Notes under the pieces: generated by a model
Told to the model about the DNA's origin: nothing
The model's database searches: none
What the model saw: the letters and a program-made list of their open reading frames with translations, nothing else
Source: Firmicutes bacterium ADurb.Bin146
Lineage (GTDB): Bacteria > Bacillota > Clostridia > DUPQ01
Assembly: GCA_002070475.1 (NCBI GenBank)
Contig: MWDI01000022.1
Location: forward strand, 1 to 64,000
Length of the DNA stretch: 64,000 bases
Reading direction: 5' to 3'
In this document: one piece after another, positions 21,474 to 32,714 of the stretch
Layout of the letters: each line of letters opens with the position of its first letter
How positions within the stretch are numbered: the first letter of the stretch is position 1
Made by a program: the position numbers and the translations under genes

Positions 21474-22754
21474 CTAGAGGTTGTCCGGCCTCTTGTAGAC
21501 GTGGCCCAGAAGGCAAGGTTTCAATGTGACCTTGTCTTTTTCTATGCAGCTCACATTAAGAATGTCTGCTGTTTCCCTCCCATAAAGGAACACGAACATC
21601 TCATAAGGGGTCCTGTCCGCCAGGGACTTCCTCGGTGTCGAGTTGATATGGGAGAACATGACGTCCAGATCCTCCTGGCTCATCCTGTCCAATTGGTACT
21701 TGTTAGGTATTATGTCCCTGATATAGTTGTGATTGTTTTCCACATGAGGCTTCTGGCTGGCCTGCATCGGGTCGCAGTAGAACATCCTGCATCTGGTAGA
21801 GCCGTCAGGTCCTGACTCGAACATGGAATATTTCTCGAATTCAGGCCCCCTGTCTGCAAGAATCACAGGGAAGAGGGTGCTGAATAGCTGTTTTCCCAGA
21901 GTGTTCTGGAGCATGTCCAGTTTCTCTGACATTGACCTGGAAGTCTTCTCTCTGTGCATGAACCCTATCATAAGCTTGGTCTGGTTATGGATGATAGTCT
22001 GTATGTAAGGGCCTTCCAGAGCATTCATCACAGTGTCCATCTCTGCATAGGGGGTATCAGGATTTTTCGACAGGAAATTCAGGAAATCACTGTATGTCCT
22101 CCCTGAATAGTCCGCTCTTTCTTTCCTCGGCTTGTGCTTGCCCCTGTACCGCTTCCTGTTGACCTGCTCTTTGAGGGAGAAGCAGTCTATGCCCAATGTT
22201 ATGAAAACGCCAGTCTCTATGTAGTGGTATATGGTCCTCTCGCTTAAATCTATCTCGTCTTTGTGTGAGGCCAGTATCTGATGCACTGACTGCCCTTTCT
22301 TGAGAAGCGGAGCCAATATGCCGCCAATCCTGAGCATATCTTTGGCTGTTATGCCTATTCCTTCTCTCGATTCTACGAGCTTCTCTTTGTACTCTTCATC
22401 GGCGCGTTCGGCGTTGTATATGTACCTGTCGAGGCAGCATCTGCTGAATTTGTCGCATTTGTTGCATGCTCCTGGAGATATGTCCCTTCTTGTGCACTTA
22501 GGTTCCTCATACCTTTCGCAGCTTCCTATGCATTTTTTCCCGCACTCCCTGGCATGTACGCATATCGTAGGCCTATTGTATGTGTTGCGTGGCTTCTTGA
22601 TCCTATGTTTTCTGATCTCTTTTGCTATGGTCGAAGGGTCTTTGTTTATCACACTCGCTATGCCAGCTTTTGATGATCCGTTCTCAATTCCAGCCTGTAT
22701 AATCTTCCTGTCGTCTATAGTCATATGTTTGTTGTTATATGGTGGTCTTCTCAT
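21474..22754 (-). CDS. IS30-family transposase
   Basis: 426 residues, longer than the roughly 380 of classical IS30. The N-terminal helix-turn-helix region has the IS30-like stretch MTIDDRKIIQAGIENGSSKA and STIAKEIRKHR. A Cys-rich segment follows (residues about 65-105, at least eight Cys), a probable zinc-binding part of the N-terminal region. The DDE catalytic residues are in YAEMDTVMN, ILADRGPEF and KPHVENNHNYIRD. A GGAAAGGA ribosome site precedes the ATG. No frameshift or stop is seen, so it is likely functional. Confidence 0.93.
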   Translation of the reverse strand: MRRPPYNNKHMTIDDRKIIQAGIENGSSKAGIASVINKDPSTIAKEIRKHRIKKPRNTYNRPTICVHARECGKKCIGSCERYEEPKCTRRDISPGACNKCDKFSRCCLDRYIYNAERADEEYKEKLVESREGIGITAKDMLRIGGILAPLLKKGQSVHQILASHKDEIDLSERTIYHYIETGVFITLGIDCFSLKEQVNRKRYRGKHKPRKERADYSGRTYSDFLNFLSKNPDTPYAEMDTVMNALEGPYIQTIIHNQTKLMIGFMHREKTSRSMSEKLDMLQNTLGKQLFSTLFPVILADRGPEFEKYSMFESGPDGSTRCRMFYCDPMQASQKPHVENNHNYIRDIIPNKYQLDRMSQEDLDVMFSHINSTPRKSLADRTPYEMFVFLYGRETADILNVSCIEKDKVTLKPCLLGHVYKRPDNL

Positions 22755-26849: not shown

Positions 26850-28220
26850 ATGTTTTACAGTGAAAGATACAAGATTATACAACCTTTGTTTATAAATCCA
26901 AAAGAATCGAAATATCTTGTGTTTGATGAAATAGACAAATGCAAAAAAGTAATAAGTGAAAAAAACGATAAGGACGAAATAGGATTTGACATTGAGGACA
27001 TTGCTAAGATAGAACACATAGGAATACCAAAAATTACTGACTATTTTGAAGTTAACGGATGTTTCTGTATTGTTCATGAGTATATTGAAGGAGAAACACT
27101 AAAAAATTATGTTGACAAGAAAGGGGTACTTGATACATATGAAGCTCTTGATATATTTATAAAGATTCTATATACAGTAAAATTTCTTCATGATATAAAA
27201 CCTTTTGAGGTAATTCATGGGAATATTCATGATGAAAATGTAGTTTTAGCTAATGATGAAGTCTACTTAACTGATTATGGAACAAAGGATGAAAAAAGGA
27301 ATCCATATCAAGCTCCAGAAGTAATAATAGGCATTAAAAAAAGCAAGCACCAAGATATTTACTCATTAGGGATGCTTTTAAATTACATGCTTACCGGCAG
27401 TTATAAAAAACCTAGTCATTCTTTAAAAAGTAACAATGGTACTGATTCGATAATTATTAGGAGCACAAGTGTGAATTATAATAATCGTTTTAATGATGTC
27501 GGAATTCTCATAACTGAGTGTGAACGACTGTACAGGAATTTAGCATCGGATGGTTCAAAGCATGTATCAAAAATTTTTGCATTAAACGGAAGCCATGATG
27601 CTATATTTGAGTTTGCCAAGACTTATTGCAAGGCTATATCAGATGACATCCTTGTTATCGATGCCGATATGCTTCATCCGTCTTTTAATGCTGATAGTTA
27701 TGTTCTAAATTATGATCTCCAGACTTTAATGGATATGGTTTCCAAAGGAGAAGACGATTCCTTAGTATTAAAAAAAGCTAAGATTGGGACTAAAGTATAT
27801 ATAATACCAAGTGTTATACGTATTGAAGGATATGAAAATGTGACATTTGCTTCATTTTATAATCTTTTAACAAGACTTGCAGAAGATTTTAATATGATAT
27901 TTATAAGATGTTCGGATTTCATATATGATTCTTTGACTATAAATACATATTCTATTGCTGACCAGATAATACACATAATGACAGATCCTTTGAATGATAT
28001 AAGGCTGTTTAATAAAATAAGCGAGTATCTCTGTTCAAGACATGACATAGATAATAAAAGATTTAATGCATTCATTTATAAAGTTAAAGCCAAAGACATT
28101 ATTACAGCTGGGATTAAAGAAAACTTATATGGTGAATACCTTGGTATAGTTAATAGTCAAAGTAAAAATTTTTACAAAGATTTACTTAACATTACTGAAA
28201 AAATCAGGAGGAAGTCTTGA
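26850..28220 (+). CDS. Pseudokinase fused to a degenerate TadZ/MinD-like domain
   Basis: 456 residues in two parts. Residues about 1-200 have the pattern of a protein-kinase fold: a hinge FCIVHEYIEGETLKNYV, a catalytic-loop equivalent HGNIHDEN (123-130), DYG (142-144) in place of DFG, APE (155-157) and HQDIYSLG. The HRD aspartate is Asn and the following Lys is His, and no glycine loop is seen, so catalysis is unlikely. Residues about 240-420 follow the TadZ/CpaE pattern of MinD-like ATPases (DILVIDADMLHPS, YDLQTLMDMV, VYIIPSVI, FNMIFIRCSD, ADQIIHIMTDP). The Walker A loop is lost (FALNGSHDA). TadZ localises Tad machines; the kinase-like half is unusual. It is the first gene of the locus, ending 1 nt before tadA. 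Confidence 0.72.
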   Translation: MFYSERYKIIQPLFINPKESKYLVFDEIDKCKKVISEKNDKDEIGFDIEDIAKIEHIGIPKITDYFEVNGCFCIVHEYIEGETLKNYVDKKGVLDTYEALDIFIKILYTVKFLHDIKPFEVIHGNIHDENVVLANDEVYLTDYGTKDEKRNPYQAPEVIIGIKKSKHQDIYSLGMLLNYMLTGSYKKPSHSLKSNNGTDSIIIRSTSVNYNNRFNDVGILITECERLYRNLASDGSKHVSKIFALNGSHDAIFEFAKTYCKAISDDILVIDADMLHPSFNADSYVLNYDLQTLMDMVSKGEDDSLVLKKAKIGTKVYIIPSVIRIEGYENVTFASFYNLLTRLAEDFNMIFIRCSDFIYDSLTINTYSIADQIIHIMTDPLNDIRLFNKISEYLCSRHDIDNKRFNAFIYKVKAKDIITAGIKENLYGEYLGIVNSQSKNFYKDLLNITEKIRRKS

Positions 28221-28221
28221 T

Positions 28222-29415
28222 ATGGGAGTACTAAAAAGATTATCATCTTTCAACGATGATTCAAACAACAGAAGATATGTAAAAGGTAGTTATCCATTAT
28301 CAAAAGTTGTAACCGATGTTACAAAGGAAATTTTAAATGCTTCCCCTGAAATTGTTGTCAATGCATATTATGATGATAAGCAAAGGAGTTTTTTAGAGAA
28401 CAGAATACTTAATATACTGGATAAACAACAATATTTTGCCATGGGATCAAAAAGGAAAATGATTAAGAGCATATTTGATTTTATGTTTGGCTATGGACAG
28501 CTTCAAGAATATATTGAAGATGATGATATTACAGATATTGATGGAGTACGTTTTGACTGTTTTTCCATTACAAAGAATGGGATAAGAGAACCTGCAGATA
28601 TAAATTTCTGTACTGAAACGGATTTTTATGTTTACTGCAAACTGATTGCTTTGAGAAATGGAGGTATCCTCAATGAGAATGACAGCCATTGCAGAGTTGC
28701 GGATATTCAGAATAAGCTTCGAATTAATATTTCAATATATCCAAGAAACATATCAGGACCAGCTATTTCAATACGAAAACATAGAAAATCCGCATTCACA
28801 ATGGAAAATCTGAAAGATTTGGGTATGCTAGATGATGCATGTGTTGAGATTCTTGAAAAATCCTTATTAGAGAATAAAACAATAATAATGTGTGGAAAAG
28901 GAGGTTCTGGAAAGACTACTCTTCTGCGTGCTCTGATAAATATACTCCCTGAAATGGAAAGAGTCCTTATAGTAGAATCAGATGCTGAGATTTATCCTGA
29001 CAAGAAATACTGTATTGAACAAAGAGTTAAAAGATATAATGAAGGCGGTAATCCAATTAATTTGGATATGCTTATAAAAGATGGGCTTACTATGTCCTTA
29101 GACACATATTGCGTTGGAGAGATCGTAGGAAACGAAGCTATGGCTTTTTTAAATGCTTGTTGTTCAGGACATAGATTCTTAACAACAATGCATGCGGATA
29201 AACCGCAGGACTGTGTAAAAAGACTTATAGCGCTTGCAAAAGGCTCGAATGGTATAAGTGATGAAAAAATGCTACTAGGTTTATTTGCTGAAGGTGTGGA
29301 TTGCATTGTTTTTCTAGAAGATTTTAAAGTTCTCAGTATTAGTAACGTAATAGGTACTGATATACCGTTAAATACTGTTGTATATGAAAAAGTATATCAA
29401 AGGAGCAGCAAATGA
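28222..29415 (+). CDS. tadA: TadA/CpaF-type secretion ATPase
   Basis: 397 residues, cytoplasmic hexameric motor of type II/IV-like (Tad) systems. Walker A GKGGSGKTT covers residues 225-233. The Walker B equivalent has TYCVGEIVGNEAM with Glu300, followed by the His box LTTMHADKPQDCVKR. The N-terminal domain contains the FGYGQLQEYIEDDDITDI stretch of the CpaF family (usual form G.gpl..ll.D..ItEI). It lies between the TadZ-like and TadB-like genes with overlaps of a few nucleotides. All catalytic motifs look intact, so the motor should be active. Confidence 0.92.
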   Translation: MGVLKRLSSFNDDSNNRRYVKGSYPLSKVVTDVTKEILNASPEIVVNAYYDDKQRSFLENRILNILDKQQYFAMGSKRKMIKSIFDFMFGYGQLQEYIEDDDITDIDGVRFDCFSITKNGIREPADINFCTETDFYVYCKLIALRNGGILNENDSHCRVADIQNKLRINISIYPRNISGPAISIRKHRKSAFTMENLKDLGMLDDACVEILEKSLLENKTIIMCGKGGSGKTTLLRALINILPEMERVLIVESDAEIYPDKKYCIEQRVKRYNEGGNPINLDMLIKDGLTMSLDTYCVGEIVGNEAMAFLNACCSGHRFLTTMHADKPQDCVKRLIALAKGSNGISDEKMLLGLFAEGVDCIVFLEDFKVLSISNVIGTDIPLNTVVYEKVYQRSSK

Positions 29416-30209
29416 CATATCTTCTCTTAAATATTTGCTTTTTTATGGTCATTGCATATTTATCTCAATTAAAAAAAACAAGATATGATATCAGATTTTT
29501 ATTTAAAAAACAACGAGGAAAATTTGTTTTATGCATATGTTTCGCCTTGTTTATAATTATAGGATCATTAATAAATAAAAGATTATCAAATTTTATAACA
29601 AGTTACTTAATTGCATTAATGCCGGCTTCAATACCATATTTAATTTATGATTTGGCAAAAAGTTCGGTTTTTACTAAAGAAAAAGAAGGTATAACTTCCT
29701 TACTAATGGTACTTACTAAATGGAGCGCAGTTAGAAATGATGCAGTCTACTGTCTTCAAAAAAGCAACGATACAAAATTATCCAAACCAATAGGAGGTTA
29801 CATAAATGACTTATGTATAAGACTCGAAAAAGGTATGAGCGTTTCTGAAGCATTGATAGCTTGCGAGAAAACAGTTTTAAGTGAAGAACTTCGATATGTC
29901 CTAATTAATATACGATATGCCTATGAAAAAGGAGGGGATCTTTACAAGATATTTAAAAGTTTGGAAAATCAGTTCTTTAAGATAGATGAGGAAAATTTTA
30001 AAAGGAAGATTAATACGATATCTGATAAGTATGCTGTATATACAGCAATTATTATGGTAATGTCTACCTTCTGTATGGTAGTATTGAACAAAGGACAGTC
30101 GCGTGAATACTATTTAAACACAGAGGCAGGCATGATGCTTTTAGGTGTATTTGCGGGACTTTTTTCTATTGGCATTTTTATTATTGTTAAAGTAATTAAG
30201 AGGTACTAA
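29412..30209 (+). CDS. tadB: TadB-like inner-membrane platform protein
   Basis: 265 residues with a membrane segment near the N-terminus, two around 35-75 and two near the C-terminus (about 208-228 and 240-262). The central cytoplasmic GspF-type domain contains the helix RLEKGMSVSEALIACEKT and YAYEKGGDLYKIFKSLENQ. This is the usual TadB layout. It overlaps tadA by 4 nt and is followed after 1 nt by a second platform gene, as TadB and TadC normally pair. Individual residues are weakly conserved, so the assignment leans on topology and position. Confidence 0.8.
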   Translation: MTYLLLNICFFMVIAYLSQLKKTRYDIRFLFKKQRGKFVLCICFALFIIIGSLINKRLSNFITSYLIALMPASIPYLIYDLAKSSVFTKEKEGITSLLMVLTKWSAVRNDAVYCLQKSNDTKLSKPIGGYINDLCIRLEKGMSVSEALIACEKTVLSEELRYVLINIRYAYEKGGDLYKIFKSLENQFFKIDEENFKRKINTISDKYAVYTAIIMVMSTFCMVVLNKGQSREYYLNTEAGMMLLGVFAGLFSIGIFIIVKVIKRY

Positions 30210-30210
30210 A

Positions 30211-30999
30211 ATGCAGATTATTAGAAATGTTATGTATTTAGGTAATATAGGAGTCGGTATCTTGTTTGCATCTTATATATCAGGTATGAAGCTTTTTAAC
30301 TACGAGAAAAAAGTTGTAAATGTCAAATCAGATAATAGAGTTAATATTTTTTTAAATAAACTTTCAAAGAAATTAAACATACCAACTGAGAAGATAAAAG
30401 AGTTCGGATCAATTGTACTGTTCTTTTTCATTGTATGTATTCTAGCTGTAATAACATCTGGAATTTTGAAGGCTGCTATTATATTAATACTTTGTGTTAT
30501 ATGGATATCTTTAATAAAAAAAGCGTGGGAAAAGAAAATCAATGACCTTTTTCAGAAAAATGCTTATAGATTATACAGATATCTGATATCACAAATAATG
30601 GCAGGGGTTAAGCCTAAAGATGTAATCATTAGTATGTACAAAATAACAGAGGACAATAGTTTAAAGAAGATACTGACTAAGGCATCCGCTGCATATTCTA
30701 TAACACTTGATGGAAAAACATATGCAAATGTCATAAAAAGTTCTATAAAAACTGAAGATGCAAAAAGATTCTGTATGATTCTTGAAGAGGATCTTTTATA
30801 TATAGATAATGAAGATTTTTTGGAAAAAATGGAAGAAATGATGTTTAACAGGTATTTTTCTTATCATCAAAGAAAAACAGACATAATTAAGAGAGGCTGC
30901 TTTGCGGCAGTATGCGTATTCATGCTTATCGTAATAATCATGGTAGCTTTGCCGCTTATGAACGAGCTTGTGCAGGGGCTCAAATATATATTTATATAG
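30211..30999 (+). CDS. tadC: TadC-like inner-membrane platform protein
   Basis: 262 residues: one membrane segment at the N-terminus (about 7-25), two around 68-105, a cytoplasmic helical domain with LYRYLISQIMAGVKPKDVIISMY, and one segment at the C-terminus (about 228-250). This matches the T2SSF/TadC architecture. TadB and TadC are thought to form the base that TadA works against. The gene lies directly after tadB and 9 nt before the pilin-like gene, whose AGGAGG site overlaps the stop region. Confidence 0.8.
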   Translation: MQIIRNVMYLGNIGVGILFASYISGMKLFNYEKKVVNVKSDNRVNIFLNKLSKKLNIPTEKIKEFGSIVLFFFIVCILAVITSGILKAAIILILCVIWISLIKKAWEKKINDLFQKNAYRLYRYLISQIMAGVKPKDVIISMYKITEDNSLKKILTKASAAYSITLDGKTYANVIKSSIKTEDAKRFCMILEEDLLYIDNEDFLEKMEEMMFNRYFSYHQRKTDIIKRGCFAAVCVFMLIVIIMVALPLMNELVQGLKYIFI

Positions 31000-31008
31000 G
31001 AGGATATA

Positions 31009-31200
31009 ATGATTACGAAACAAAAAAGCAAGAAAGGATTTGGTGTGTCTGAAATAATCGGAATAGCGACAGTTCTGATAATCGCAGCAGCGGTGGTAAT
31101 ACCTGGCTTAAGAGGTATTGCAGCAGACATTATCGATTCAACAAAAACATGGGTTGGAACAAAGTTGCAATTTATCTTTGGTCTTGAAACCGGAAGTTAG
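31009..31200 (+). CDS. Flp-type prepilin (63 residues)
   Basis: Tiny protein with a class III signal: a basic leader of 10 residues (MITKQKSKKG), predicted cleavage between G10 and F11, and Glu at +5 (E15) in FGVSE. A single hydrophobic segment follows (about residues 16-40), then a short polar tail. This fits a Flp major pilin or pseudopilin, which TadA/B/C would assemble after cleavage by a TadV-like peptidase. No such peptidase is in the window. A strong AGGAGGA site makes it well expressed, as expected for a main subunit. Confidence 0.78.
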   Translation: MITKQKSKKGFGVSEIIGIATVLIIAAAVVIPGLRGIAADIIDSTKTWVGTKLQFIFGLETGS

Positions 31201-31209
31201 TTCAAAAAT

Positions 31210-31584
31210 ATGGCTGAGAAAATTATAATAAGCATGATAACTTTGCTCATAATGCTTTGTGTCTTTGCATATTTTGTTGATGTACTTGCAATTATATCAA
31301 AAAATATGGAATTTCAAGACATATGCAGAGGATATATGCATTTAGCTGAACAGAATGCAGGATTAACCTATGAGCATAAAATAAGTGTGGTCCAGGATCT
31401 GATTTCAAGGGGCTTTGATAATGTTGTAGTCCAGGCCCCTGAATCAGCCATATATGGAAGTATGTTTAGTTTGAATATACAAGCATCGTATCAGATGAAT
31501 ATGATAAATGATATCTTCAGCAGAAATTTTCAGAAGTATGTAATGTGTTTTAGTCAAAATATTATGGCAAGAAAGATTCGATGA
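31210..31584 (+). CDS. Small single-pass protein in the Tad-like locus (TadE-like candidate)
   Basis: 124 residues. One hydrophobic segment at the N-terminus (about 5-29), then a soluble domain with no motif I recognise. Size, topology and position match the minor pilin-like TadE proteins or the clostridial DUF4320-type proteins of such loci. It lacks the KKG leader seen in its two neighbours, so it may not be processed. The role as a minor subunit is inferred from context only. Confidence 0.6.
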   Translation: MAEKIIISMITLLIMLCVFAYFVDVLAIISKNMEFQDICRGYMHLAEQNAGLTYEHKISVVQDLISRGFDNVVVQAPESAIYGSMFSLNIQASYQMNMINDIFSRNFQKYVMCFSQNIMARKIR

Positions 31585-31585
31585 T

Positions 31586-32041
31586 ATGGGTATTAAGAAA
31601 AAGGGAACAGGAATATCAGAACTGCTTATAGGTGTTTTTATAATAATCTATATATTGCTTCCTCTTTTTTGCTCTATAGTCAATAAAGCAATGTTTTATC
31701 ATCAGATTAATAAAATAGAACAGTCTGTGGAGATGGCTGTTATATCTTTAATAAGCAATAATAATATTGATTCATTTTCATCAGGCTTACTTTCATTAGA
31801 TGAAGATAATGATATGCTTAAATATTTGATTGCTGATGAGATATCAAAAGCTTGTATTAATACTCTAAATGTAAATAGTGAAGGTATTGATGTTTTTGTA
31901 CATGAAACAGACAGTTTTTGCAGATGCGGTTACTATAGTGACTATTTCATGATATCAGCAGATATATTCGCAACTTTGAATTTTTTGGGTCAAAGACAAA
32001 TGGTAGTCCATAAGCATGTTGAGTTCCCTGTTAAAAGATGA
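31586..32041 (+). CDS. TadE-like pseudopilin with class III signal
   Basis: 151 residues. The N-terminus MGIKKKGTGISELL has a basic leader ending in G7, then T8 and Glu at +5 (E12), the same KKGxG(V/I)SE motif as the 63-residue pilin. One hydrophobic segment (about 13-33) is followed by a soluble domain of about 115 residues containing two close Cys residues (CRCGYYS). I infer a minor pilin or pilus-tip protein. The gene follows its neighbour after 1 nt. Confidence 0.68.
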   Translation: MGIKKKGTGISELLIGVFIIIYILLPLFCSIVNKAMFYHQINKIEQSVEMAVISLISNNNIDSFSSGLLSLDEDNDMLKYLIADEISKACINTLNVNSEGIDVFVHETDSFCRCGYYSDYFMISADIFATLNFLGQRQMVVHKHVEFPVKR

Positions 32042-32087: not shown

Positions 32088-32714
32088 ATGAAAAAATATA
32101 AATATTACATATTAGCAGCTATATTTGCTGTCTTGCTTACTCTTTTACAGATATTTATCTCTAAAGCTATGATCGAAAAAGATAAGGGATATCTATATGT
32201 TTCTGATAGAGATTTTGTTAAAGGAGAGCATATAAAAGAAGGGGATATAAGAAAAATAGAAGTATTTGGATATACATCATCATATACTATCGATGAAAAC
32301 AAGGTATGCATCAGTGACATGCCAAAAGGTGTAATACTTACAGAACAGATGTTTATTGATGCTAAAATCAATCAAGATTTGAGAATAGTATGCCTGATGG
32401 TTGATAAAAGCAGATGTCCTTCAACAATGTTATCTGAGTCTGATAATATTGATTTGTTCATAATACCTGATAATAAATCAATAAGTTTGTATGAATCAGA
32501 ATGGATGAATAAAATTCTTAAAGTGTTGAAAATAGAATATGATATGGATAATGATATCGGATTTATGATAAAAAATTTATCAATAGCTTCTCTTAGCTAT
32601 CCTGAAAGTTCGAATTATTCTATTAATTTTAGAGTTATTGAACCTGTAGACCAGCTTTTAGCTTTTCTTAAAAATCGGAGCATAATAGAGATTATCCTTC
32701 CTATGCAATATTGA
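32088..32714 (+). CDS. CpaB/RcpC-like SAF-domain protein
   Basis: 208 residues with one N-terminal membrane segment (about 6-26) and an extracytoplasmic SAF-type domain: LYVSDRDFVKGEHIKEGDI, then DMPKGVILTEQMF. This is the usual arrangement of CpaB/RcpC. In Gram-negative Tad systems that protein works next to the secretin. In a cell without an outer membrane it more likely contacts the wall or pilus. A GGAGAG site precedes the ATG. It closes the Tad-like locus. Confidence 0.75.
   Translation: MKKYKYYILAAIFAVLLTLLQIFISKAMIEKDKGYLYVSDRDFVKGEHIKEGDIRKIEVFGYTSSYTIDENKVCISDMPKGVILTEQMFIDAKINQDLRIVCLMVDKSRCPSTMLSESDNIDLFIIPDNKSISLYESEWMNKILKVLKIEYDMDNDIGFMIKNLSIASLSYPESSNYSINFRVIEPVDQLLAFLKNRSIIEIILPMQY

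Follow-up and report, generated by a model that had tools for sequence, protein, structure and literature searches.

A kinase-fold module fused to a TadZ-like domain in clostridial tad operons, with a putative non-catalytic form in one genus

The window, a stretch of 64,000 nucleotides from the genome of Firmicutes bacterium ADurb.Bin146, carries a tad/flp operon whose first gene encodes a protein of two joined domains (Table 1). The gene (26850-28220, + strand) is a single frame of 456 codons followed by TGA, and its ATG is preceded by AGGAGG, a good ribosome-binding site; the original prediction had frame, length and coordinates right. A protein-kinase fold is found at the N-terminal end of the protein and a MinD/ParA/TadZ-fold domain at the C-terminal end. 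The start of tadA lies one base past the stop of the fusion gene, and tadB, tadC and flp are encoded with them, which bears out the Tad context that had been proposed. The two TadE/TadG-like frames and the frame in the CpaB/RcpC position are putative assignments made by position, and a prepilin peptidase gene is located elsewhere in the genome. Each of the 11 genomes available for the order has the fusion and, as far as contigs extend, an identical gene order; in G003 most of the kinase half is cut off by a contig end. As independent genomes show the same single frame, an assembly or frame artefact is ruled out. Outside the operon, an IS30-like transposase frame (21474-22754, - strand) lies between a phosphoribosyltransferase gene and ftsH; the same interval has only about 90 bases in genome G001 (L025), so this element looks recently inserted.

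Table 1. Features of the fusion gene and of the tad/flp operon that it opens (positions are those of the window).
Feature	Position	Strand	Basis
Whole fusion gene, pseudokinase and P-loop-less TadZ-like protein, 456 aa	26850..28220	+	Orthologues in 11 of 11 genomes of the order
Pseudokinase domain, residues 1-233	26850..27548	+	Pfam Pkinase, Foldseek PknB
Ser36 at the beta3 VAIK lysine position	26955..26957	+	Lys in g2, g3 and most other fusions
Catalytic loop, residues 123-130, HGNIHDEN with Asn for the HRD Asp, His for Lys and Asn130 retained	27216..27239	+	HGDIKPEN in sister genera
DYG, residues 142-144, metal-binding Asp kept	27273..27281	+	
TadZ/MinD-fold domain without P-loop, residues 234-456	27549..28217	+	AlphaFold2 model, Foldseek, motif table
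C-terminal amphipathic, basic segment, residues 437-454	28158..28211	+	Hydrophobic moment 0.60, net charge +3
tadA, CpaF-type motor ATPase	28222..29415	+	TIGR03819 8.8e-37 (below curated cut-off), T2SSE 6.4e-24; conserved neighbour
tadB-like platform protein	29412..30209	+	T2SSF 5.7e-8; conserved order
tadC-like platform protein	30211..30999	+	Position and conservation; no Pfam match above cut-off
Flp-like prepilin, 63 aa, KKG/FGVSE processing motif	31009..31200	+	Sequence; conserved in family
Two TadE/TadG-like pseudopilin frames (124 and 151 aa), putative	31210..32041	+	DUF4320 0.006 for the first, below cut-off; conserved order
208-aa frame in CpaB/RcpC position, putative	32088..32714	+	Conserved order; no Pfam match

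The kinase fold of the N-terminal half, which had been proposed from the letters of the sequence, is upheld by three lines of evidence. Pfam Pkinase matches residues 35-189 (2.3e-18), PDB sequence profiles place PknB/Stk1 and StkP at the top (E 5e-33 against PknB), and the predicted structure has Staphylococcus aureus PknB (4eqm) as its top Foldseek match (E 1.3e-15, TM 0.70 of the target). These values rule out a chance resemblance. The model of the full-length protein is of moderate quality (pLDDT 75.5, pTM 0.58) and is no guide to the orientation of the two domains.

Which kinase residues are left? The half reads H123-G-N125-I-H127-D-E-N130, D142-Y-G and A155-P-E157, with Asp169 in helix F; Asn125, His127, DYG, the intact APE and the helix-F Asp, together with a VIDAD at residues 269-273 of the C-terminal half, match what had been described. 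Beyond that description, the beta3 VAIK lysine is also lost (Ser36) and the glycine-rich loop is missing. With Ser36, Asn125 and no glycine loop, the domain lacks the features of an active Hanks-type Ser/Thr kinase and has those of a pseudokinase, as the kinase fold and the DFG Asp are kept while the VAIK Lys and the HRD Asp are gone. PknB, Stk1 and StkP are the best matches to the N-terminal half in sequence and fold, but the fusion protein differs from them in being joined to a TadZ domain, in being without PASTA, in its shortened activation segment and, in the genus of the window (g1), in the loss of the catalytic Lys, the catalytic Asp and the glycine loop.

The C-terminal half taken alone matches weakly (minD_arch 0.012); as a family profile it matches archaeal MinD (3.8e-8) and ParA (1.7e-14). 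Its AlphaFold2 model is confident (pLDDT 91.6, pTM 0.90), with Foldseek matches to ParA (3ea0), MinD, FleN and the Eubacterium rectale TadZ (3fkq), and the MinD/TadZ likeness first read from strand patterns is confirmed by profile, model and the 3fkq match. The reported loss of the Walker A lysines is correct but was understated, as no GK[ST] is left and the P-loop has shrunk by about six residues. A P-loop of the VWDNAEFGCELAY type, shortened in this way, is found in the fused proteins and in related receiver-type proteins, and GKT or GKS is retained in five other TadZ proteins from the class. NYE and IYDS are new conserved positions in most of the P-loop-less TadZ proteins. The segment at residues 437-454 ranks third of 439 windows of the protein by hydrophobic moment, and it is possibly a membrane-targeting helix.

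TadZ/CpaE proteins, represented by E. rectale TadZ and Caulobacter CpaE, share with the fusion protein a MinD/ParA-fold C-terminal domain, a place in a tad operon beside tadA and a two-domain build; the basic, high-moment segment at residues 437-454 may correspond to their C-terminal amphipathic helix. Two of their traits are different here. The atypical receiver domain at the N-terminus is replaced by a kinase fold, and the P-loop, which in TadZ/CpaE is deviant but ATP-binding, is deleted rather than deviant. TadZ/CpaE proteins also localise to the pole and recruit parts of the Tad machine. For Caulobacter, a fit of CpaE dimers into the Tad machine puts them in a ring about the CpaF motor, where the REC domains are the probable points of contact; a C-terminal amphipathic helix of CpaE is proposed to bind the membrane (PMC13170226).

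The original prediction suggested a search for the same domain order beside tadA in other Clostridia. A C-domain profile was run against 391 genomes of the class and against 58 of a single order, with a check of every match frame by frame. No fewer than 39 genomes, from 18 families of the class, encode a kinase and a TadZ-like domain in one frame, a count that is a lower bound and, as the order was chosen for holding the family, gives no estimate of frequency. About 30 of these fusions adjoin tadA, usually with tadB and tadC as well. The fusion is therefore not unique to this lineage, and absence from relatives, which would have spoken against it, is not what is seen. In the sample of the phylum outside the class, only kinase-free TadZ was found at the same threshold (L116-L118). 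A fortieth genome (G038; L123, 517 aa) was left out of the count since a second frame scored higher; its locus (C285, 1479-3340) has a kinase-TadZ frame followed by a second TadZ-domain frame cut by the contig end, possibly a tandem. At L141 / L170 (G799:C426) an in-frame TAA in the TadZ domain splits the fusion gene, either a sequencing error or a pseudogene.

Comparison of the catalytic residues among the fusions gives a graded picture. In most fusions of other families the set is full, with a glycine loop such as GxGGMGxV, AIKE, YRDxKPSN and DFG, and nearly all fusions among the 39 or more genomes retain the beta3 Lys, the HRD Asp, the catalytic-loop Lys and the DFG Asp. Sister genera g2 and g3 have no glycine loop and keep the beta3 Lys (IIKE, VIKE, VLKE, IIKR), HGD[IV]KPEN and DF[GDA]. 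In g1, Ser stands for the beta3 Lys, Asn or Ser for the HRD Asp, His for the catalytic-loop Lys and DYG for DFG; APE, the helix-F Asp, Asn130 and Asp142 are retained, and position 125 varies (N, N, S) among the three species with the N-terminal half available. Degraded N-lobes also occur in two genomes of family f84 and one of f67, where the HRD Asp is kept. Among the fusions found, loss of this Asp is seen in g1 only, and its presence in g2, g3 and elsewhere points to a derived state. A fusion with a pseudokinase was thus correctly predicted, but the pairing with a dead kinase is not typical, as the fused kinases elsewhere usually keep all catalytic residues. The statement that both enzymatic centres look dead holds for the residues; the two histories differ. 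Judged from the residues present, the nucleotide-binding loop is lost across the whole TadZ subfamily, and the kinase catalytic residues are lost locally.

In part of this TadZ subfamily the N-terminal domain is a different one, which matches response-regulator receivers weakly but consistently (Spo0A 0.0024). When the presence or absence of the kinase is placed on the C-domain tree, six changes are needed and a single kinase clade is rejected (p 0.02), on a tree with long branches and unsure deep branching; a kinase fusion that arose only once in the subfamily is accordingly not favoured. This repeated exchange of N-terminal domains indicates that the kinase occupies the slot of the receiver domain. 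In one species pair, the kinase half has a dN/dS of 0.143, the TadZ half 0.116, TadC 0.134 and TadA 0.068, rough values because dS is saturated. By this measure the pseudokinase half is under purifying selection and about as constrained as the TadZ half. Together with the presence of fusion and operon in all 11 genomes, this speaks strongly against a decaying gene.

The protein is probably a variant of TadZ/CpaE, a partner of the TadA motor in which a Ser/Thr-kinase module has taken the place of the atypical receiver domain. It would be a TadZ-type ring subunit, with the kinase module where REC lies, and would be held at the membrane. In most Clostridia with the fusion, the kinase keeps its catalytic residues and probably phosphorylates something at the Tad machine. 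In g1 the module would act as a non-catalytic scaffold or switch: as it has apparently lost catalysis yet is kept under selection, it is most likely a structural or allosteric interface, which may join TadZ subunits that lack a P-loop to each other and to TadA, with neither domain turning over ATP. The role of a scaffold, possibly ligand-sensing, that was originally suggested is plausible for the g1 protein. Since Asn130 and Asp142 are conserved, some residual binding of nucleotide or metal could remain.

Other readings of the g1 module have to be weighed. It might be a regulatory receptor that binds another kinase or a phosphoprotein and so switches pilus assembly on or off. The same genome does encode a second kinase-domain protein (a 727-aa frame, Ser/Thr kinase) and has an FHA protein in a second Tad-like locus, and the receiver domains found in the same slot suggest a position for signal input; but the FHA gene lies outside the operon of the fusion gene, with no direct link to it, and the sequence gives no sign of a partner, which makes a receptor of this kind unlikely.

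Could the module still be an enzyme with altered chemistry, by SelO-like AMP transfer or weak kinase activity, rather than a pure scaffold? The catalytic loop and DYG of Escherichia coli SelO (Hgvmntdn) resemble HGNIHDEN and DYG of the fusion protein, and the two metal-ligand positions, Asn130 and Asp142, are conserved in all three species with the N-terminal half available. SelO, however, keeps the beta3 Lys where the fusion protein has Ser36, and the inconstancy of residue 125 and the missing glycine-rich loop also argue against an altered enzyme, so that this is quite improbable. Least credible, and very improbable, is a decaying remnant in which the kinase half lost its job in g1 and is tolerated as a linker. 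Most kinase motifs are eroded in g1 and its stem branch is long (1.8 changes per column in the C-domain), but the two halves are under about equal constraint (dN/dS 0.14 against 0.12, rough values with dS saturated), no frame damage is found in three g1 species, and APE, the helix-F Asp, Asn130 and Asp142 are kept.

The reading of g1 as a non-catalytic scaffold or switch has a precedent in EssB/YukC, a pseudokinase that serves as scaffold of a secretion system (PMC12599244). Both are non-catalytic kinase folds serving a secretion-type machine (PMC12599244, PMC9600267). The machine is a different one, type VIIb secretion, and EssB/YukC is not fused to a MinD-type domain; Pfam and NCBIfam scans gave no match of the fusion protein to the EssB family, and its neighbours are tad genes. 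Type VII loci of Gram-positive bacteria that adjoin Tad genes also have kinase-like proteins and TadZ-like receivers, and there TsfV (T7SSf) with a TadZ-like receiver and the T7SSg/h loci show a similar mixing of TadZ modules with kinase-like proteins; a kinase fused to the ATPase-type domain of TadZ is not described in the accessible part of that paper (PMC11217815). A survey of Gram-positive tad operons mentions no kinase (PMC3244431). A search of open-licence papers turned up none that describes a kinase-TadZ fusion, an absence that is not proof.

The control of Tad pilus extension and retraction is poorly known, most of all for Gram-positive organisms. That a kinase is joined to the motor's TadZ partner suggests phosphorylation as an input. 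Is it catalysis or the fold that matters? The graded series at one locus, from intact to loop-poor to dead kinase, asks this directly, and the same series may serve as a traceable case of evolution from enzyme to scaffold. A wider proposal is more tentative and somewhat doubtful as it stands: that type IVc pili have a new form of control, whereby clostridial TadZ exchanged its receiver for a Ser/Thr kinase on the motor ring and one lineage made the kinase a non-catalytic subunit of the motor. If true, it would offer a natural live-to-dead kinase series on a pilus motor.

Further sets of loci were observed. At L119, L121, L122, L167, L168 and L169, the kinase-TadZ fusion, in most cases with an intact kinase, has as its neighbour a distant T2SSE-type ATPase (about 550 aa), and several of these loci also have a small ParA-like protein; apparently the fusion is used here by another kind of type IV filament-like system. 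At L156, L157, L158, L161, L162, L164, L170, L073 and L080, all of one order, the kinase-TadZ tad operon adjoins fliD/fliS-like flagellar genes, and several of these contigs have leuC/leuD/leuB-like genes on the opposite side. This stable neighbourhood suggests vertical inheritance.

The second Tad-like locus of the window's own genome (L154:3015-7620; G000:C17, about 27014-31619) encodes a TadZ whose Walker A is intact (HGGAGKT), together with a TadA, a pair of platform proteins, an Flp-like frame of 55 aa and the FHA protein, which is of the DUF6382-FHA type. DUF6382, compared with the fusion protein as a candidate for another pseudokinase, gave a weak BLASTP similarity (E 0.18). DUF6382 genes are present in 9 of the 11 genomes of the family.
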